This document shows positions 26,179 to 37,904 of a stretch of 64,000 nucleotides of DNA, piece after piece. The position numbers and the translations under genes are program-made. The stretch is from contig NZ_CP028158.1 of NCBI RefSeq assembly GCF_003030345.1, positions 5,270,001 through 5,334,000 of the forward strand, given 5' to 3'. Every line of letters starts with the position of its first letter. Position 1 is the stretch's first letter. The notes under the pieces are model-generated. The model did not search any database and was not told the DNA's origin. It saw nothing but the letters and a program-made list of their open reading frames with translations. Origin of the DNA: Plantactinospora sp. BC1. GTDB taxonomy: Bacteria > Actinomycetota > Actinomycetes > Mycobacteriales > Micromonosporaceae.

Positions 26179-27777
26179 TCAGCCCCGGCGCAGCACCGCC
26201 AGGAACATCGCGTCGGTGCCGTGCCGGTGCGGCCAGAGCTGCACCGTGGGGCCGTCGCCGAGGCCGGGCATCCCGGCCGGCAGCAGCGGGCGGGCGTCGA
26301 CGAAGTCGACCGGTACCCCGGAGCGCCGGGCCGCCTCGGTGACCGAGACGTGCGTCTCCACCACGTGCGGCGAGCAGGTCACGTACGCCACCACCCCGCC
26401 CGGCCGGACCGCCCGGAGCGCGGCGCCGAGCAGCTCCCGCTGCAACCGGGTCAGCGCCGGCAGGTCGGAGGGCTGACGGCGCCAGCGGGACTCGGGACGC
26501 CGCCGCAGCGAGCCGAGACCGGTGCAGGGCGCGTCGACGAGTACCCGGTCGAAGGAGTCCTCCGGCAGGTCCGGGTCCCGCCCGACGGTGCGCCCGTCGA
26601 CGTTGAGCACGGTCACCGGCAGCCCGCGTACGGCCTGGGAGACCAGCCGGGCCCGGTGCTCGGCCACCTCGACGGCGGTCAGCGAGGCGCCCCGCTGGGC
26701 GGCGATGGCGCCGAGCAGGCCGGACTTGCCACCCGGCCCGGCACAGAGGTCGAGCCACCGTTCGTCGGTGCCCTCGACCTCGGCGGCGGTGAGCGCGGCG
26801 GCGACCAGTTGGGAGCCCTCGTCCTGGACGTGCGCCCGGCCGTCGGCCAGCACCGCCAGCTCGCCCGGGGCACCCCCGGCCAGATAGACGGCGTACGGCG
26901 AGAAGGCGCCCGGCGCGCCGCCCACCTCGTCGGCGACCTCGACCGCGTCTGCCCGGCCCGGACGGGCGCAGAGGTGCACCGGCGGCCGCTGGTTGTCCTC
27001 GATCAGCAGCCGGGTGGTCTCCCCCAGGTCTCCGCCGAGCGCCTCGGAGAAGGCCCGCACGATCCACTCGGGATGGCTGTAGGTGAGGGCCAGGTGCCCG
27101 ATCGGGTCGCTCTCGGCCGACGGGGCGAGCTCGGCCAGCCAGGTGTCGAGGTCCTTGCCGGCGATCTCCCGCAGCACGGCGTTGGCGAACCCGGACGCCC
27201 CCGGGGCGACGGAACGGACCAGGTCGACCGTGGAGGAGACGGCGGCGTGCGCCGGGACCCGGGTGTAGAGGATCTGGTAGGCGCCGAGCCGCAGCGCGTC
27301 CCGGGGTTGCGGGTCGATCCGCGCGACGTCCCGACCGGCGGCGGCGGTGAGGATCGCGTCCAGGGTGCCCCGGACCCGCAGCGTGCCGTAGGTCAGCTCG
27401 GTGGCGAAGGCCGCGTCCCGGCCGTGCAGCCGCCGGTCGCGCAGGATGCCCGGCAGGACGAGGTTCGCGTACGCGTCGTCCCGGTGCACCGCCTCGATCG
27501 CCTCGTACGCCGCCTGCCGGGGCAGGTCGACCGCCGGCCGCGCCGCCCGGGGCGGGCGCCCGTCCCGGTCCCGCTGGCCGGCGCCCCGGCCGCCCCGGTC
27601 GGCACCACCCTGCCCGGTACGCCCCCGTGGGGCGTCCCGCCGCCGATCGTCACGCCGAGGGTCGTCGCGCCGCTGGTCGTCACGCCGCCGGTCGGTGCCG
27701 CCCTGCGCACGGTCGTCGCGGCTCCGGTCGGCTCCGGCCCGTGCGGTGCCGCCGACCTGTCCGGTACCTTCGCTCAC
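26179..27777 (-). CDS. rsmB: 16S rRNA (cytosine-967-C5)-methyltransferase
   Basis: RsmB methylates C967 of 16S rRNA using SAM. The 532-residue protein has an unusual N-terminal tail of about 80 residues rich in Arg, Asp and Gly, with repeated RRDD units. A NusB-like RNA-binding domain ([18 protein letters not shown] onward, about 86-215) and the catalytic domain follow. The latter has [20 protein letters not shown] (SAM motif I), the [15 protein letters not shown] motif and the nucleophilic cysteine region YVTCSPH. The GTG start overlaps the fmt stop (GTGA). The tail could have a shorter true start, but no better ribosome binding site is visible inside it. Confidence 0.96.
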
Positions 27778-28712
27778 CCGAAATGCTCCCCACCGGCGAC
27801 CCGTACGCCCCGGGCCCAGTCCGGCGCCGGCATGGCGCGCTTGCCCGCCGCGCGTACCTCGCCCAACTCCACCGCAGTGGTGGCGGTACCGGCCAGCACC
27901 CGGCCGCGCTCGACCAGCAACTCGCCGGGCTTGAGTTCCGGTGCGTTGCCGACCGGCCGCACCGGGCCGAGCTTGACCCGGTCGCCCCGGAACCGGGTCC
28001 AGGCGCCGGGGGCCGGGGTGGCGGCCCGGATCCGCCGGTCCACCGCGAAGGACGGCTCCGACCAGCGCACCTCACCGTCGGCGACGGTCAGCTTCGGCGC
28101 CAGCGAGACCCCGTCGGCGGGTTGCGGCACCGCGTGCGCGGTCCCCTGCCCGATCGCGTCCAGCACGGCGACCAGCAGGCCACTGCCGCTGGCGGCGAGG
28201 CGTTCCAGCAGGTCACCGGCGGTGTCGGAGGGCCGGATCTCCTCGGTCACGGTGCCGAAGACCGGCCCGGTGTCCAGCCCGGCCTCCAGTTGGAAGACGC
28301 TGGCGCCGGTGACCTGGTCGCCGTGCAGCACCGCGTGTTGCACCGGCGCAGCACCGCGCCAGGCGGGCAGCAGCGAGAAGTGCAGGTTGACCCAGCCGTA
28401 CGCCGGGATCTCCAGCGCCTCCGGTGGCACCAGCGCGCCGTAGGCGACCACCGGTACGCAGTCGGGGGCGAGTTGGCGCAGCCGGTCGAGGAACTCCGGC
28501 TCCCGGGGCCTGGCCGGGGTCAGCACCTCGATGCCACGCTCGTCGGCCCAGGCACCCACGGGGGACCGGGCCAGTCCCCTGCCGCGACCGGCCGGGGCGT
28601 CCGGCCGGGTCACCACGGCCAGCAGTTCGTGCCCGGAGGCGGCGATGGCGTCCAGGCTGGGCAGGGCGACGGCCGGCGTACCGGCGAAGATCAGGCGCAC
28701 CGGCCGGGTCAC
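27774..28712 (-). CDS. fmt: Methionyl-tRNA formyltransferase
   Basis: Fmt formylates the initiator methionyl-tRNA with 10-formyltetrahydrofolate. The protein has 312 residues. The N-terminal Rossmann-type domain has [16 protein letters not shown] (8-23) and a catalytic region with [19 protein letters not shown] (about 109-127, Asn/His active site). The C-terminal OB-fold domain follows from about 205. GTG start overlaps the def stop and its own stop overlaps rsmB, so def-fmt-rsmB is one coupled operon. Confidence 0.98.
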
Positions 28713-29329
28713 CGACCCAGGCCGAACGGGCTGGCGGGGCGGTCCGAGCCGCCCAGACCCAGCTTGGCGGCCAGGCCCTGGCGCCGGTCGGCCGGCGGGT
28801 CGTGCGGGCTGACCTTGATCACCGGCGGGGCGTCCTGGTCGTACCAGTCCGCCTGCCGGATCGCCTTCATCGCCTCCTTGCGCCCCTCGGCGTCGAGGCG
28901 GTCGAGGAAGAGCACCCCGTCGAGGTGGTCGGTCTCGTGCTGCACGCAGCGGGCCATCAGGCCGGTGCCGACGATCTGCATCGGGTCGCCGTACTCGTTG
29001 AAGCCCTTGGCGATCACGTTGAGCCGGCGCTTGGTGTCGAAGTAGAGCCCGGGGATGGAGAGGCAGCCCTCGGGACCGTCCTGCTCGTCGGAGTCGGGGA
29101 ACTCAAGTACCGGGTTGACCAGGTGTCCGAGCACGTCGTCGACGTCGAAGGCGAACACCCGCAGGCCCACGCCGAGCTGCGGCGCGGCCAGGCCGGCGCC
29201 GTTCTGCTCCCGCATCGTGTCGGTCAGGTCGGCGACCAGTTTGCGCAGCTCGGCGTCGAAGTCGACGACCGGTTCGGCCGGGGTGCGCAGCACCGGGTCC
29301 CCGAAGAGACGGATGGGCTGGACGGTCAC
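28709..29329 (-). CDS. def: Peptide deformylase
   Basis: Def removes the N-formyl group that Fmt introduces. The three metal-site motifs are present: [10 protein letters not shown] (about 43-52), EGCLSIPG (about 87-94) and QHETDHLDG (about 130-138). The 206-residue length includes a C-terminal extension ([16 protein letters not shown]) common in actinomycetes. The GTG start is preferred to an ATG 18 bases upstream because that ATG lies directly against AAGGAG, which is correctly placed as the ribosome binding site for the GTG. The usual N-terminus ([13 protein letters not shown]) also begins there. Confidence 0.97.
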
Positions 29330-29448
29330 GCGGGACGGCTCCTTCACGGATGGGATCGGTGGTGCCGTACCCAGTCTACGGGCGGGCGAGGGGGACGACC
29401 GGTGCGCCGGGACCGGCGGGTGCGAGGGGCCGGGTACGGTGCGAGCCG

Positions 29449-29521: not shown

Positions 29522-30505
29522 TCAGGGTTGGGTGCCCGGCTCGCCGGCCAGTACGGCGTCGGTGCGCTCCAGGATGTGCTCGGGGAGCGGGAGCTGCGTG
29601 CCGTGCGCGGCGTCCCAGTCGTAGATCACGCTCAGCCCGACCTCGGCCCGGAAGTACTCGATCGCGCTGAGCCCGCCGACCACCTGCTCGTCGCACTCGG
29701 CGACGAGTTCCCCCGGCACCAGCTTGAAGCCGTTGCGCAGCGCCGCGCTGAGCCGGCGGTGCCCGTCGACCACGAAGAACTTCTCGCCGGTGTAGCCGAT
29801 CCGCAGCGGCTCCAGCGCCTCCTCGCCGGCCTGCCCGACCTGGGCGACGAAGTCCGACTCCCAGAGGCCGCGCAGTCCCTGGACCTCCTGGGTGGGGTAG
29901 ATCCGGGCCGGGTCGAGCAGCAGCAGCGGCGGGGAGTCCCGAAGGATCTCCTGGCCGAAGGAGCCCTCGTAGGCGGCGATGACGTGCTCGACCACCTCGA
30001 CCGCCGACGCCTTGGTGGTGTCGCAGATGAGGTCGTAGTTGCGCAGCTTCGCCTTGTCGACGCCGTACCGGACCAGGAAGCGGTTCCGCTCGCTCTCGCT
30101 GCGTTCGTGCAGCTTGGCGCGGGCCTCCTCGATCGAGGTGTAGCTCTCCGCCGGCCCGGAGGGCCGGGCGAGCACCCGGCGTGCCGCCTCGGTCGGCTCG
30201 GTAATCATATGGATCTTGAGCGCGTTCTTGAAGAAGTGCCAGGCGAGCCGGCTGTCGACGATCAACTGCTCGCCGGAGTCGGCGATGTCCTGCTGGAGCT
30301 GGTCGACGTAGCCGTCGACCGCCTGGTCCAGCTCGGCGTGCAGGTTGAGCTGGAGCGCGGTCATCTTGCGCTGCTGGGCCATCTCCCGATAGAGGTCGCC
30401 GACGCTGACCCGGCGCAGCCCGAGCCGTTTGGCCAGCTCGATGGAGACGGTGCTCTTACCGCTGCCAAGGTCACCGTTCAGGACGATCGACTGCCGACCG
30501 GTCAC
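29522..30505 (-). CDS. Cytidylate-kinase-like P-loop protein fused to a ParB/Srx-like domain
   Basis: The 327-residue protein has two parts. Residues 1-180 resemble a CMP-kinase-like P-loop NTPase: GDLGSGKSTV at 11-20, then a DSRLAWHFF segment and a RNRFLVRYGVD helix in the places expected for the NMP-binding and lid regions. Residues 190-325 resemble the ParB N-terminal/sulfiredoxin fold: LLLDPARIYPTQEVQGLR, then the hallmark VVDGHRRLSAALRNG near 248-262. Several ParB/Srx proteins bind or hydrolyse nucleotides, and SerK phosphorylates free serine, so an enzyme rather than a DNA-binding role is conceivable. It lies alone between def and priA, with terminator-like hairpins on each side. The function is unknown. 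Confidence 0.8.
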   Translation of the reverse strand: MTGRQSIVLNGDLGSGKSTVSIELAKRLGLRRVSVGDLYREMAQQRKMTALQLNLHAELDQAVDGYVDQLQQDIADSGEQLIVDSRLAWHFFKNALKIHMITEPTEAARRVLARPSGPAESYTSIEEARAKLHERSESERNRFLVRYGVDKAKLRNYDLICDTTKASAVEVVEHVIAAYEGSFGQEILRDSPPLLLLDPARIYPTQEVQGLRGLWESDFVAQVGQAGEEALEPLRIGYTGEKFFVVDGHRRLSAALRNGFKLVPGELVAECDEQVVGGLSAIEYFRAEVGLSVIYDWDAAHGTQLPLPEHILERTDAVLAGEPGTQP

Positions 30506-30739: not shown

Positions 30740-32935
30740 TCAGAAGATGTCCTGCGGGTCGACCTGGACCCGGACCGGCTGGCCGGCCTTGCGGGCCGTG
30801 CGGAGCGCCGCCGCCTCGTGCAGGGCGGTCGCCAGCGCGGCGGCCTGGGACCGGGGCACCCGGATCAGCATCCGCTCCTGCCCCTCCGGGGCCGGCACCG
30901 GGCCGAGCACCTCGGCGGCCGGCGGCAGCCGGGCCTCGTCCAGCAGCTCCGCCACCGCCGTCGCCACCCCGGTCAGGCTGGCCATCCGGGCCGCCGGCGG
31001 AAAGCCCAGCTCCCGCCGCTCGGCCAGCTCCCGGCCGGCGAACCAACCGGGATCCCAGCGCAGCAGCGCCTGCACCGGCGCCAGCGACCCGTCCGCGACC
31101 ACCACCACCCGGCCGCCGGCCGCACCGGGCCGGGCCAGCGCCGCCGCCGCCAGCCAGCGACGCAGCGCCTCCTCCCCGGCCCGCAGGTCCGCCCGGGTCA
31201 GCAGCGCCCAGGAGTCCAGCAGCAGCACCGCGCCGTAGCCGCCGTCGGCCACCGGCTCGGCGCCGGGCGTCGCGATCACCAGGCCCGCGTCACCGGGCAC
31301 CGAACGCAGCACCTCCTCCCGGCCCGAGGTCCGCACCGGCACGCCCGGAAACGCCCGGCCCAGCTCCTCGGCGGTACGCCGGGCACCCACCACCGCCGCC
31401 CGGAGCCGGTGCCCGCCGCACTGCGGGCAGGAGTATCCGGCGGTCACCCGGGCGCACCACCGGCAGGCCGGAGTCGCGCTGGCCGAGCGCAGGGCGAGCG
31501 GGCCGGAGCAGTGCGGGCACCGGGCCGGCGCCCGGCACTGCGCGCAGGCCACCGCCGGCAGATAGCCGCGCCGGGGCACCTGGACGAGTACCGGCGCGTC
31601 GGCCTTCAACGCCGCCCGGGCCGCGTCCCAGGCCAGGCTCGGCAGCCGGGCCGAGGCCGCGGCGGGGTCCCGGGCCAACTGCGGGTCGTCGCCGGTCGGG
31701 GTGATCCTCGGGGTACGCGCCCGCAGCGTCGCCCGGTCGGCCACGATCTCCCGTGCCCACCCCGTCTCGACGAGCAGCCGCGACTCGGCGGTGCGGGCGT
31801 ACCCGCCGACCAGCACCGCGGCGTCACCGAGCCGCGCCCGGGTGAGCAGCACCTCCCGGGCGTGCGGGTACGGCGCCCGGGGCTCGGCGTGCAGGTCGTC
31901 GCCGTCGTCCCAGATCGCCACCAGCCCGAGGTCGGCGACCGGGGCGAACATCGCGGCCCGGGTACCGATCACGACCGGTACCCGGCCCCGGCAGGCCGCG
32001 AGGAAGGCCCGGTACCGCCGCGCCGGCCCGAGTGCCGCCGAGAGCGCCACGTGCCGCCCGGCGCCGAGCAGCCCGGTCAGCGCGGCGTCGAGTCGTTCGA
32101 GGTCCCGGGCGTCGGCCACCACCGCCACCACGCCCCGGCCGCCGCGTACGGTCGCCGCCGCCGCCTCCGCGAACCGGGTCGCCCAGTCCTCGCCGGGCAG
32201 CGCCGACCAGACCGCCCGGGGTGCCCGGCCGTCGGCCAGGGCCCGCAGGAACCCGGGTCCGGCCGGATAGCTCCGCCAGCCCGCCTCGACAGGTCCGTCG
32301 GCACCGACCAGCCCCTCGGTACCGTTCGTGACCGCTCCGGCCAGCCCTTCGGAGCCCTCGGAAACCGCTCCGGCCGCCCCCTCGCTGACGTCCGGGACCG
32401 CTCCGACCGCCCTCTCGGGACCGTCTGCGGCCAGTCCGGCCGGCCCCTCGGGACCCGCCGAAACCGCTCCGGCCAGCGCCTCGGGACCGTCCGGAACGGG
32501 TCCGGTCGGTGTCGCCGCGGCCGCTGCGGGTTCCGGTCCGGTCTCGTCCGCCGCCGGTACCGACTCCGTCGCCGGGTGGGTGCCGGTCGGTGGGGGCGGC
32601 GCGGTGGGCGGGGCGGCCTCGCGCTCGACCCGGGCGTGCCGGGGCGGGACGGCCAGCCGCAGCACGTCGGCGAGGTTGCCGGCGTACCGGTCGGCGACCG
32701 CCCGGGCCAGCCGGGCGATCTCCGGGGTCAGCACCGGCTCGGGCGAGACGACCCGCTCCAGGTAGCTCAGCCGGCCCTCGTGGGCGGAGAGTTCGGCCCG
32801 GTCCAGCAACCAGCCGTCGACGAGCTGGCCGGCGAACCGCACCCGCACCCGGGTGCCCGGCCGGGCCTGGTCGGCGAGGTCGGCCGGGACCAGATAGTCG
32901 AAGGGCCGGTCCAGGTGCGCCAGCGGCACGTCCAC
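30740..32935 (-). CDS. priA: Primosomal protein N' (PriA-like), ATPase motifs lost
   Basis: This is the actinobacterial form of the replication restart protein. The DNA-binding N-terminal domain (VPLAHLDRPFDYLVPADLAD) and the zinc-binding cysteine pairs (CAQC, CPHC, CRWC, CPQC at about 474-513) are kept. The helicase Walker A (GxTGSGKT in E. coli) is replaced by SALPGEDWATRFAEAA, and the DEEH box by IWDDGDDLH. It is therefore predicted to bind DNA but not to unwind it, as is known for this lineage. A Pro/Ala/Glu-rich insert of about 110 residues (near 105-220) repeats GPEGLAGAV-type units. The GTG used has no ribosome binding site, and homologous residues (LPVARV) appear to extend upstream of it through a strong hairpin towards the metK stop. 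Confidence 0.9.
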   Translation of the reverse strand: MDVPLAHLDRPFDYLVPADLADQARPGTRVRVRFAGQLVDGWLLDRAELSAHEGRLSYLERVVSPEPVLTPEIARLARAVADRYAGNLADVLRLAVPPRHARVEREAAPPTAPPPPTGTHPATESVPAADETGPEPAAAAATPTGPVPDGPEALAGAVSAGPEGPAGLAADGPERAVGAVPDVSEGAAGAVSEGSEGLAGAVTNGTEGLVGADGPVEAGWRSYPAGPGFLRALADGRAPRAVWSALPGEDWATRFAEAAAATVRGGRGVVAVVADARDLERLDAALTGLLGAGRHVALSAALGPARRYRAFLAACRGRVPVVIGTRAAMFAPVADLGLVAIWDDGDDLHAEPRAPYPHAREVLLTRARLGDAAVLVGGYARTAESRLLVETGWAREIVADRATLRARTPRITPTGDDPQLARDPAAASARLPSLAWDAARAALKADAPVLVQVPRRGYLPAVACAQCRAPARCPHCSGPLALRSASATPACRWCARVTAGYSCPQCGGHRLRAAVVGARRTAEELGRAFPGVPVRTSGREEVLRSVPGDAGLVIATPGAEPVADGGYGAVLLLDSWALLTRADLRAGEEALRRWLAAAALARPGAAGGRVVVVADGSLAPVQALLRWDPGWFAGRELAERRELGFPPAARMASLTGVATAVAELLDEARLPPAAEVLGPVPAPEGQERMLIRVPRSQAAALATALHEAAALRTARKAGQPVRVQVDPQDIF

Positions 32936-32994: not shown

Positions 32995-34188
32995 TCAGGC
33001 TCCCGCGGCCGACTTGAGGTCGGCGGCGCGGTCCGTGTTCTCCCAGGTCAGGTCGGGCAGCTCACGGCCGAAGTGGCCGTACGCGGCGGTCTGCCGGTAG
33101 ATCGGGCGGAGCAGGTGCAGGTCCCGGATGATGGCCGCCGGACGGAGGTCGAAGACCTCGCCGACCGCCCGCTCGATCCGGTCCACCGGTACGTTCTCGG
33201 TGCCGAAGGTCTCGATGAAGAGGCTCACCGGGTGCGCCTTGCCGATCGCGTACGCGACCTGGACCTCGCAGCGCTCGGCCAGCCCGGCGGCCACCACGTT
33301 CTTCGCCACCCAACGGGTCGCGTACGCGGCCGAGCGGTCGACCTTGGACGGGTCCTTGCCGGAGAACGCCCCACCGCCGTGCCGGGCGTACCCGCCGTAG
33401 GTGTCGACGATGATCTTGCGTCCGGTCAGTCCGGCGTCGCCCATCGGCCCGCCGATCTCGAACCGGCCGGTCGGGTTGACCAGCAGCCGGTACCCGTCGA
33501 TGTCGAGGCCCAGTTCCTCCAGCTCCGGCGCGATGACGTGCTCGCGGATGTCCGGGGTGAGCAGCGACTCCAGCGAGATGTCGGCGGCGTGCTGGCTGGA
33601 GACGACGACCGTGTCGAGCCGGACCGGGCGCAGCCCGTCGTATTCGATCGTGACCTGGGTCTTGCCGTCCGGCCGTAGGTACGGGATGGTCCCGTCCTTG
33701 CGGGTGGCGGAGAGCCGCCGGGCCAGCCGGTGTGCCAGGGCGATCGGCAGCGGCATCAGCTCGGGCGTCTCCGAGCAGGCGAAGCCGAACATCATGCCCT
33801 GGTCGCCGGCGCCCTGGGCGTCCAGCGCGCTCTCCGACGAGCCGGAGCGCAGCTCGATGGCGCTGTCCACACCCTGGGCGATGTCCGGCGACTGCGATCC
33901 GATCGACACGCTGACGCCGCAGGAGGCGCCGTCGAAGCCCTTCTTCGACGAGTCGTAGCCGATGCCGAGGATCGTCTCGCGGACGATTGCCGGAATGTCG
34001 GCGTACGCCTTCGTGGTCACCTCGCCCGCGACGTGCACCTGGCCGGTCGTGATGAGAGTTTCGACCGCGACCCGGCTACGCGGATCCTGGTCCAGCAGCG
34101 CGTCGAGGATGCCGTCGCTGATCTGGTCAGCGATCTTGTCGGGGTGGCCTTCCGTGACCGACTCCGAGGTGAACAAGCGACGTACCAC
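32995..34188 (-). CDS. metK: S-adenosylmethionine synthetase
   Basis: MetK makes SAM from ATP and methionine. The 397-residue protein has the three-fold repeated fold with [20 protein letters not shown] at 7-26, [12 protein letters not shown] (about 125-136) and the P-loop-like [16 protein letters not shown] (about 269-284). A GTG start with AGGAG at the right distance is used. A TACACT at 34225-34230 on this strand is a reasonable -10, without a good -35. SAM supplies the several methyltransferases in this window and BioA, which uses SAM as amino donor. Confidence 0.98.
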
Positions 34189-34279: not shown

Positions 34280-35485
34280 TCATGACAGGCCGGTTAAGCG
34301 CGTTACTACCAGATCCCAGACGCCGTCGGCGAGATCTTCCTTGGATTGCTCGGGAAACGCTGTCGCCGAACCGTCAGCGCCGAGCACGACGGCGGTGTTG
34401 CGGTCGGCACCGAAGACCAAGTCCGGGCCGACCTCGTTCACCACGATCAGGTCGGCGCGCTTGCGGACCAGCTTGGCCCGGGCGTTCGCCTCGGCGTCGC
34501 TGGTCTCGGCGGCGAAGGCGACCAGCACCTGCTCCGGCCGGCGGCGCTGGCCCAGCTCGGCGGCGATGTCGGGGTTGGCCACCAGTTCGACGGTGAGGTT
34601 GTCGCCCCGGTCCGACTTCTTGATCTTGTTGGGCGCGTACGTCGCCGGCCGGAAGTCCGCCGGTGCCGCCGCCATCACCACGGCGTCGGCCGTCTCGGCC
34701 GCCTCCAGGGTGGCCTTGCGCAGCTCCTCGGTGGTGGAGACCCGGACCACGTCCGCGCCGGCCGGGTCCGGCAGCGCCACGTTCGCGGCGACCACCGTCA
34801 CCTGGGCGCCCCGGGCCACCGCCGTGCGGGCGAAGGCGTAGCCCTGCTTGCCCGACGACCGGTTGCCGAGGAACCGCACCGGGTCCAGCGGCTCGCGGGT
34901 GCCACCGGCGGTCACCACCACCCGGCGGCCGGCCAGGTCCCGGGGCTCGGCGACGCCGCGGGCGAGCACCCGGCGGGACACCGCGAAGATCTCGGCCGGG
35001 TCGGGCAGCCGGCCCTTGCCGGTGTCGACGCCGGTCAGCCGGCCGCTCGCCGGCTCGATCACCAGGACGCCCCGCTGACGCAGCGTCGCGACGTTCTGCA
35101 CGGTGGCCGCATGCTCCCACATCTCGGTGTGCATCGCCGGGGCGAGCACCACCGGGCAGCGGGCGGTCAGCAGGGTGTTGGTGAGCAGGTCGTCGGCGAG
35201 ACCGTGCGCGGCCTTGGCCAGCAGGTCGGCCGTTGCCGGGGCGACGACCACCAGGTCGGCGGCCTGGCCGAGGCGGACGTGCGGCACCTCGTGCACGTCG
35301 GCCCAGACGTCGTCGGCGACCGGCTGGCCACTCAGCGCCGCCCAGGTCGGCGCGCCGACGAAGCGCAGCGCGGAGGCGGTCGGCACGACCCGGACCCGGT
35401 GCCCCGACTCGGTGAAGAGCCGGAGCAGCTCACAGGCCTTGTAGGCGGCGATGCCACCGCCCACCCCGAGAACGACAGCGGTCAT
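34280..35485 (-). CDS. coaBC: Bifunctional phosphopantothenoylcysteine decarboxylase/phosphopantothenate-cysteine ligase
   Basis: CoaBC performs two steps of coenzyme A synthesis. The N-terminal flavin-dependent CoaC domain (about 1-180) has [13 protein letters not shown], a conserved active-site His near VPHVRL and the APAMHTEMW substrate motif. The C-terminal CoaB ligase (about 185-401) has [20 protein letters not shown], the [12 protein letters not shown] nucleotide loop and the conserved lysine in the KIKKSDRG segment. Length and motif order are normal. It follows rpoZ after 19 bases in the same direction, as is usual in actinomycetes. Confidence 0.98.
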
Positions 35486-35504: not shown

Positions 35505-35768
35505 CTACGGCTGGTCGGTCGGCTCGGCGGTGAGCAGACCGGCGTTGATCTCCCGCATCGCGATCGAGAGCGGCTTCTCCTGCGGAGTGGTCTCCACCAG
35601 CGGGCCGACGTACTCCAGCAGGCCCTCGCCGAGCTGGCTGTAGTAGGCGTTCACCTGGCGGGCGCGCTTGGCGGCGAAGATCACCAGAGCGTACTTCGAG
35701 GTGGTCTTCTCGAGCAGCTCGTCGATCGGCGGGTTGGTGATGCCTTCGGGACTGGCGATGGATCCCAC
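35505..35768 (-). CDS. rpoZ: RNA polymerase omega subunit
   Basis: Omega is a small structural subunit that assists assembly of beta prime. The 87-residue protein has the conserved [20 protein letters not shown] (10-29) and [14 protein letters not shown] (30-43), and ends in a flexible acidic tail. It sits between gmk and coaBC as in most actinobacterial genomes. Confidence 0.98.
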
Positions 35769-36443: not shown

Positions 36444-36761
36444 CTAGTTCGCCGAGAATTCTCCAAGCAGTGCCTTGCGCTGCTGCTCACCGAGGCCACG
36501 GAGGCGACGGCTGTCGGCGATCTTGAGCTTCTCCATGATCTGGGTGGCCCGGATCTTGCCGATTCCCGGCATGGCCTGAAGTACGGCCGATACCTTCAGC
36601 TTGCCGACGACGTCGTCCGACTCCGCACGGTCGAGGACGGCGGCGAGGTTGGTCTTGCCCTGCTTGAGCTCTTCCTTGAGCTTCGCCCGGGCCTTGCGGA
36701 TCTCCGCGGCCTTCTCCAGCGCGGCTGCGCGCTGTTCGGGGCTCAGTTGGGGGAGCGGCAC
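36444..36761 (-). CDS. mihF: Integration host factor, actinobacterial type (mIHF/sIHF)
   Basis: This is a nucleoid-associated protein unrelated to enterobacterial IHF. The 105-residue basic protein has a helical N-terminal part (AALEKAAEIRKARAKLKEEL) and a helix-two-turn-helix DNA-binding part containing the diagnostic MPGIGKIRATQIMEKLKI (about 64-81), then RRLRGLGEQQRKALL. The ATG is preceded by GAGGAG. The 171 bases upstream, between it and the pyrF stop, probably hold its own promoter. In Streptomyces sIHF affects topology, sporulation and antibiotic production. Confidence 0.98.
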   Translation of the reverse strand: MPLPQLSPEQRAAALEKAAEIRKARAKLKEELKQGKTNLAAVLDRAESDDVVGKLKVSAVLQAMPGIGKIRATQIMEKLKIADSRRLRGLGEQQRKALLGEFSAN

Positions 36762-36932: not shown

Positions 36933-37775
36933 TCACTGACCGCCGCCGGTCAGCGCGGCCCGGCAATCGGCCAGCGCCCGCTCCGCGGCGGCCCGCAACG
37001 CGGCCGGCTCGGGGCCCGCCCCGAGCACCTCCCGGGAGTACGACGGAAGCACCTTCGACAGCTCGCCGCCGAAGACCGTACGCAGGTCGTCGGCGCGTCC
37101 GCCCTGCGCGCCGAGGCCCGGGGCGAGCAGCGGTCCGCCCACTCCGGAGAGGTCGTGTCCGGTCTCGCCGATGGTGGCGCCGACGACGAGCCCGAAGCTG
37201 CCCAGCGGTTCCGCACCCGCGTTGAGCTGCGAAATCTCTTCAATGATCGTTTGCGCGACGGTTCGTCCGTCCGCGCCGACGGCGCGCTGGACGCTGGCGC
37301 CCTCGGGGTTGGAGGTGAGCGCCAGCACGAAGACGCCGCCGCCGTGCTTGCGCGCCGTGTCGAACATCGGGGCGAGCGAGCCGACCCCCAGGAAGGGGCT
37401 CGCGGTGATCGCGTCGACATACATCGGGCTGGATGGATCCAGGTACGCGTCGGCGTACGCGGCGACCGTGGAGCCGATGTCGCCGCGCTTGACGTCAAGC
37501 AGAACGAGCGCTCCGGCGCCCCGCAACTGTCGGATAATTGACTCAAGTACGCCGACCCCGCGCGACCCGAACCGCTCGAAAAATGCCGACTGCGGCTTGA
37601 CCACCGCGACCCGGTCGCCGAGCGCCTCGACCACCGTCTCGCCGAACCGGGCCAGCCCGTCGACGTCGTCGCTCAGCCCCCACCGGCTCAGCAGCGCGGG
37701 ATGGGGATCGATGCCGACGCAGAGCGGCCCGCGCTCCGCCATCGCCCGGTGCAGCCGACTGCCGAAGGTCTCCAT
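36933..37775 (-). CDS. pyrF: Orotidine 5'-phosphate decarboxylase (type 2)
   Basis: PyrF performs the last step to UMP. This is the mycobacterial-type enzyme of 280 residues. The catalytic Asp/Lys tetrad lies in LVLLDVKRGDIGSTVAAYAD (about 91-110), and SPFLGVGSLAPM and a GLVVGAT phosphate-binding region follow. The start METFGSRLHRAM is preferred because GAGAGG lies directly upstream; a 20-codon longer frame has poor content. An 11-base perfect hairpin lies just upstream of the ribosome binding site, between bioA and pyrF. Confidence 0.97.
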   Translation of the reverse strand: METFGSRLHRAMAERGPLCVGIDPHPALLSRWGLSDDVDGLARFGETVVEALGDRVAVVKPQSAFFERFGSRGVGVLESIIRQLRGAGALVLLDVKRGDIGSTVAAYADAYLDPSSPMYVDAITASPFLGVGSLAPMFDTARKHGGGVFVLALTSNPEGASVQRAVGADGRTVAQTIIEEISQLNAGAEPLGSFGLVVGATIGETGHDLSGVGGPLLAPGLGAQGGRADDLRTVFGGELSKVLPSYSREVLGAGPEPAALRAAAERALADCRAALTGGGQ

Positions 37776-37793
37776 TCGCCTCTCCTCTCCGCC

Positions 37794-37820
37794 GGCGACC
37801 TGACCCTCCGTCAGGTCGCC
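37794..37820 (-). terminator. Hairpin between bioA and pyrF
   Basis: GGCGACCTGAC and GTCAGGTCGCC pair perfectly around CCTCC. It lies 19 bases before the pyrF start and about 85 bases after the bioA stop. It could end the pyr-bioA transcript or modulate pyrF translation. Confidence 0.55.
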
Positions 37821-37904
37821 GCGACTAACCGTCATGTCCTCGACCGGCCGCCGCCCCGCCGACGTACCGCGTCGACGGATCCACCGGGGAGCGGCGCGTC
37901 CGCC

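Follow-up and report, generated by a model that had tools for sequence, protein, structure and literature searches.

We report that the window, i.e. the whole 64,000-nucleotide stretch of Plantactinospora sp. BC1 DNA analysed here, encodes a fusion of an NMP kinase of the archaeal-type CMP kinase group with a ParB/Srx-like domain, and that this protein has probably replaced guanylate kinase (Gmk), with its ParB/Srx-like half as an accessory and likely nucleotide-sensing part. Specifically, the gmk gene in the same gene row is damaged, the kinase and the loss of gmk show matching occurrence patterns, and selection acts on the kinase half. The nearby damaged gmk and the kinase that tracks gmk loss are the main point, which is absent from an earlier annotation made from the sequence alone (the first-pass annotation). 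Judging from the occurrence patterns, GMP would be the substrate (GMP kinase activity, EC 2.7.4.8).

The fusion gene, its kinase half and the damaged gmk

The P-loop GDLGSGKSTV, the LLLDPARI lead-in and DGHRRLSAALRNG, which the first-pass annotation had read, are all found in the fusion reading frame (Table 1). The putative architecture that it proposed, a CMP-kinase-like and a ParB/Srx-like domain in one chain, is supported by Pfam and TIGR02173 for the N-terminal half and by profile comparisons for the C-terminal half. The fusion is not due to chance since the full-length form recurs, usually with 72-97% identity, in dozens of named species. Since a canonical cmk and a separate ParB_N protein are also present in the Plantactinospora genome, the fusion is an extra protein there.

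Table 1. Positions in the window of the fusion gene, its parts and the neighbouring genes
Feature	Position	Strand	Basis
Fusion gene, 327 aa, GTG start	29522..30505	-	ORF and translation; conserved in 73 named loci
Kinase half, residues 1-182	29960..30505	-	Pfam/NCBIfam, dN/dS 0.19, Foldseek
P-loop GDLGSGKS (kinase half)	30452-30475	-	
DSRLAW signature (kinase half)	30239-30256	-	
ParB/Srx-like core, residues about 191-272	29690..29935	-	hhalign, PDB profile match Spo0J, weak model
Box GHRR, residues 248-251	29753-29764	-	within ParB/Srx-like core
C-terminal tail, residues 273-327, YDWxAAH motif	29525..29689	-	alignment
priA, upstream neighbour of fusion gene	30740..32935	-	Pfam
def, downstream neighbour of fusion gene	28709..29347	-	Pfam
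fmt	27774..28712	-	Pfam
rsmB	26179..27777	-	Pfam
metK	32995..34188	-	Pfam
coaBC (dfp)	34280..35485	-	Pfam
rpoZ (omega subunit)	35505..35768	-	Pfam
Damaged gmk, 170 aa	35905..36417	-	TIGR03263, alignment with intact Gmk
H2TH-domain protein (mycobacterial IHF-like)	36444..36761	-	Pfam H2TH_5; 'mIHF' is the name given here
pyrF	36933..37835	-	Pfam OMPdecase

The kinase half matched the Pfam families AAA_18 (8e-17), Cytidylate_kin2 (2e-12) and Cytidylate_kin (2e-11), and its Foldseek matches were CMP, shikimate and adenylate kinases. The whole half aligns with the archaeal-type (d)CMP kinase model TIGR02173 (4e-25), and the P-loop, the NMP-binding arginine and a C-terminal RYG.D...YDL are common to both. 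However, the score of 88.7 bits is under the curated cut-off of 102.1, and the fusion protein differs from that family in having DSRLAWxF in place of E-S/G-R-L-A-G-W, in its extra C-terminal half, and in co-occurring with canonical cmk and with gmk loss. Some standalone relatives exceed the TIGR02173 cut-off, and the NCBI family models would label many of these proteins (d)CMP kinase. We take D129-G130-R131-D132 of E. coli Cmk to correspond to D84-S85-R86-L87 of the kinase half; this change would remove a cytosine-contacting Asp, but archaeal Cmk has the same change, and the support that it lends to the GMP reading is therefore weak. With Gmk (TIGR03263, PF00625) the fusion protein shares the predicted reaction and, in the actinobacterial class to which genome G244 belongs (see below), the genomic position, but it belongs to a different P-loop kinase family and has no TIGR03263 match.

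The fusion gene was said in the first-pass annotation to stand alone between def and priA; instead it is part of the co-directional row pyrF-mIHF-gmk-rpoZ-coaBC-metK-priA-[gene]-def-fmt-rsmB, and metK/priA and def/fmt/rsmB flank the fusion wherever contigs reach (L001-L072), with varying spacing to def. The gmk gene of this row, 5.4 kb from the fusion gene, is the only gmk match in its genome. It scores 132 bits against the TIGR03263 cut-off of 160 and covers only profile positions 2-123 of 180. Alignment with intact Gmk showed that the P-loop and the GMP-binding region are kept and that the LID of about 26 residues is gone, including the block ELxRRLxGRGTDDxETIxRRLxxAxEEL of intact relatives; the lid pattern is absent in 59 of the 59 named loci with a readable gmk. 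In NMP kinases the lid arginines serve phosphoryl transfer, and the LID-less Gmk would have lost its activity. Although loosely selected, the frame of the LID-less gmk has stayed open in Micromonospora, Salinispora and Plantactinospora, and repurposing is possible.

Occurrence of the kinase and loss of gmk in two actinobacterial groups

Named species with the fusion include many in Plantactinospora, Micromonospora, Salinispora and Verrucosispora, and there is also an Actinoplanes. In a sample of 171 Micromonosporaceae genomes, 61 (16 of 44 genera) have the fusion. Among the same 171 genomes the gmk match was well under the cut-off in 41, ending near profile position 123 of 180 where listed, and the seven genomes of genus g293, all with the fusion, gave no gmk match. 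Altogether, 48 genomes of eight genera have a truncated gmk or none, and the fusion is present in every one of them (48/48). Together with G169, a fusion-bearing genome whose gmk is visibly damaged in the P-loop and lid segment, the count is 49 of 50, the exception being G543, whose assembly is 77% complete. The only other fusion-less genome that failed the gmk test, G537, did so because of a single frameshift in an otherwise intact gmk, and in 12 genomes the fusion coexists with a full gmk. The switch can be seen within genus g273, where G505 has the fusion and a damaged gmk, which has also lost the Walker A lysine, whereas G534 and G552 have an intact gmk and no fusion. Fisher's test gave 8e-28 for the Micromonosporaceae (G169 counted as intact, G537 as defective), a descriptive value that ignores relatedness; the genome counts in this cross-count and in the one below are not phylogenetically independent.

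The class of G244 is in the same phylum as the window but is a different class; the fusion occurs in three of its genomes, and there are also standalone kinases that share a clade with it. The kinase-bearing row reads carB-pyrD-pyrF-(~104 aa)-kinase-metK-coaBC-priA-def-fmt, with gene identities inferred from protein lengths and the order in the window, and the kinase often occupies the position that gmk has in the window. This placement led to a search for gmk in a choice of 28 genomes: none of the kinase-bearing genomes of the class had a canonical gmk (G244 and G831 gave just 24 and 32 bits with the gmk model) and seven kinase-less class-mates had one, while canonical cmk was over the cut-off in 27 of the 28 tested genomes, including that of the window. 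Among the 175 genomes of the class that are at least 90% complete, the 13 without a canonical gmk are the same 13 that have the kinase (E about 6e-29 or better), and none of the other complete genomes has it (Fisher p about 7e-20, which ignores phylogeny and is descriptive). Weaker matches elsewhere in the class (E about 1e-9) cover the P-loop region only, and seven further gmk-less genomes in the draw are 64-79% complete.

Families f47, f49 and f69 of this class also hold gmk-positive genomes without the kinase, and the swap of gmk for the kinase therefore probably happened more than once there. In the tree, the fusions and the standalone kinases form one supported clade, outside of which the kinases of G831, G835 and G905 group with haloarchaeal cmk; these three, out of the 13 gmk-less genomes, thus carry a different, archaeal-cmk-like lineage, apparently an independent swap. 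Their kinases (L222, L223 and L224) have ESRLAGW or EARLAGW and a Thr in place of the P-loop lysine, and all three genomes are gmk-less. Genome G919 (91% complete) has a standalone kinase, no gmk and no canonical cmk match over the cut-off, either because cmk was lost in the assembly or because the kinase serves both roles; a CMP role is possible there.

Relatives, selection and the ParB/Srx-like half

Outside these groups, Rhodococcus megaplasmids and a Parabacteroides distasonis plasmid encode the fusion at 33-40% identity over 80-93% of its length, with the YDWxAAH motif of the tail in common according to the alignment. The Parabacteroides gene (L136:8612-13619) lies downstream of capsule genes in a tight co-directional run, together with genes for an AAA_28 ATPase, a protein of 284 aa that fits no Pfam family clearly, a radical SAM-SPASM protein, a zinc-type dehydrogenase and HPRT, possibly a biosynthetic operon. 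In Rhodococcus (L134:9191-17904; also L135 and L137) the fusion is part of a recurrent stress-type island with a dsRBD-fold protein, a universal stress protein and a Clp N-domain protein, to which pDK2 adds an NHEJ ligase and Hsp20. On a Natrinema megaplasmid (L139:3953-6071) the gene for a haloarchaeal TIGR02173 kinase, a single-domain relative and candidate guanylate kinase of archaea, adjoins an IMP dehydrogenase gene. A gene for a 262-aa kinase-like protein overlaps a B12-binding-type radical SAM gene (L103:11-2106) in a different family of the order. In G605 (L205), a second Gmk-like frame (GTRGAGKTTLAELLLRESGTAMRRVPSFTTRPP...) shares a 10-kb stretch with a fusion whose C-terminal half has decayed.

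No relative was found in the viral collection, using queries led by Micromonosporaceae or the Parabacteroides protein, or in phage records; with housekeeping genes as neighbours, a prophage or toxin-antitoxin role was dropped. The search of genus g24 (no match in 120 genomes) had no positive control and is hence uninformative.

The median dN/dS for 16 Micromonospora-group loci was 0.19 for the kinase half, 0.18 for def and 0.18 for fmt, compared to 0.42 for the ParB core, 0.51 for the tail and 0.54 for the damaged gmk. Hence, constraint on the kinase half equals that on def and fmt and is weaker on the ParB half and on the damaged gmk; given the constrained kinase half, we dropped the idea of a dispensable fusion. 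The kinase half is no less constrained in gmk-intact genomes (pN/pS 0.34 vs. 0.50), suggesting that the fusion protein is useful beside an intact gmk too. All 82 fusions that come from lineages with a defective gmk retain the GHxR box (13 of these are on short contigs with gmk out of reach, and close relatives were counted separately), versus four of 12 with an intact gmk. It is lost in the fused relatives of Rhodococcus and G244 and in several Micromonosporaceae, including most of the gmk-intact ones.

The C-terminal half alone gave 11.6 bits with Pfam ParB_N, below the gathering score of 26.3, and its profile had the ParB protein Spo0J (1vz0, E 0.02) as only match in the PDB. Weak matches of this profile in actinobacterial genomes were, where readable, mostly canonical ParB or DGHHR ParB-like proteins. 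The HHpred-type check proposed in the first-pass annotation likewise favoured the assignment, since hhalign gave probabilities of 95.2% for ParB and 96.0% for the DGHHR group against at most 6% in 17 control alignments; the ParB set was drawn from genome matches of the same profile, so that the hhalign result and those matches are not fully independent. In both the hhalign and the Spo0J comparison the GxxR box is aligned. AlphaFold2 models were poor both with 13 sequences (mean 50.7) and with 61 (mean 52.2); in them the b-a-b-b-a-b order of the C-terminal half fits ParB/Srx but pLDDT is under 50 over most of it, and the best 50 Foldseek matches of the 61-sequence model were to the kinase half only. 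The fold claim consequently rests on the profiles, which indicate a genuine though remote ParB/Srx relationship for residues 191-272.

This core, with its GxxR box, is homologous to that of the ParB-CTPase fold proteins (ParB, Noc and PadC), but the fusion protein is without the HTH and C-terminal dimerisation domains of canonical ParB and has only a short tail after the core. With the SerK/SbnI free-serine kinases and sulfiredoxin it shares the fold class, and D-G-H-x-R in some members; unlike in these, the nucleotide-binding box is not conserved in the fused family and there is no serine or cysteine context. Among non-fused relatives, actinobacterial DGHHR ParB-like proteins of about 290-370 aa (L100:1075-1941 and L118) are closest to the C-terminal half. 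A survey of ParB-fold domains states that they bind CTP, ATP or GTP with a specificity that is not predictable from sequence, and its main text names no nucleotide kinase among the fusion partners (PMC12704722).

Predicted function and its significance

In the mechanism that we propose, the kinase half would transfer phosphate from ATP to GMP (GMP + ATP to GDP + ADP) using the P-loop, the NMP-binding arginines and the C-terminal arginine/lid segment. The ParB/Srx-like half would not be required for the basic reaction, because standalone relatives appear to fill the same role without a second domain; most likely it would be a nucleotide-binding regulator that tunes the cell's sole GMP kinase to guanine or cytidine nucleotide levels. 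The neighbours of distant relatives, HPRT in the Parabacteroides run and IMP dehydrogenase beside the single-domain haloarchaeal relative, count for the GMP role.

Counting against guanylate kinase are the damaged gmk, whose frame is open and whose GMP-binding region is present in most such genomes, so that it could still be partly functional, and the 12 Micromonosporaceae with an intact gmk next to a fusion whose kinase half is still constrained. Both observations, and the P-loop that the damaged gene has kept, would agree with a broad NMP or other small-molecule kinase that works together with a LID-less Gmk still making GDP, a partnership that would account for the match with gmk damage. 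We consider this unlikely given the seven g293 genomes and the 13 genomes of the class of G244 without any gmk, the loose evolution of the damaged gmk, and the missing Walker A lysine in G505. Also counted against are the standalone relatives above the TIGR02173 '(d)CMP kinase' cut-off, the lack of a cmk match in G919, the different, archaeal-like kinase lineage in three of the 13 gmk-less genomes, and the phylogenetic non-independence of the counts. With TIGR02173 as the best family match, and with certain ParB-fold domains binding CTP according to the survey (PMC12704722), the fusion could be a second (d)CMP kinase, perhaps tuned by CTP on the ParB-like half; this is improbable, as such an enzyme is not needed where canonical cmk is present (27 of 28 tested genomes, that of the window among them) and would leave the tracking of gmk loss unexplained.

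The first-pass annotation had suggested a two-step reaction or a sensor, and the ParB/Srx-like half as a second catalytic site, e.g. a free-serine kinase, would suit the GHRR box and lead-in strand and the DGHKR and PTEN of the Parabacteroides protein. We regard a two-step enzyme of this SerK-like kind as very improbable: the fusions of Rhodococcus, G244 and most gmk-intact Micromonosporaceae no longer have the box, standalone kinases do without the second half, the C-terminal half is the less constrained part, evolving about twice as freely, and no serine-pathway neighbours were seen. The sensor part of the suggestion is possible and would fit the accessory role that we predict for this half in a kinase replacing Gmk.

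All guanine nucleotides depend on one single step, the conversion of GMP to GDP. Gmk is described as essential (PMC5686395), and for Archaea the GMP kinase reaction is known but the enzyme is not (PMC4177761). In our literature searches, which covered only a minority of subscription papers, no description of the fusion or of a gmk replacement and no paper linking guanylate kinase with Micromonospora was found, and titles and abstracts gave nothing relevant on cytidylate kinase with ParB or on non-orthologous guanylate kinase. More tentatively, the archaeal-type CMP kinase group might include an unrecognised second guanylate kinase family that took the place of Gmk on several occasions within Actinomycetota (two lineages seen), that is maybe also the archaeal enzyme, and that was joined by a ParB-fold switch for GTP supply in the Micromonosporaceae. 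Identifying the GMP kinase of genera with a damaged gmk, such as Micromonospora, Salinispora and Plantactinospora, would correct the '(d)CMP kinase' names, and it would provide a concrete candidate group for the archaeal guanylate kinase as well as an example of a core metabolic kinase that carries a ParB-fold domain.
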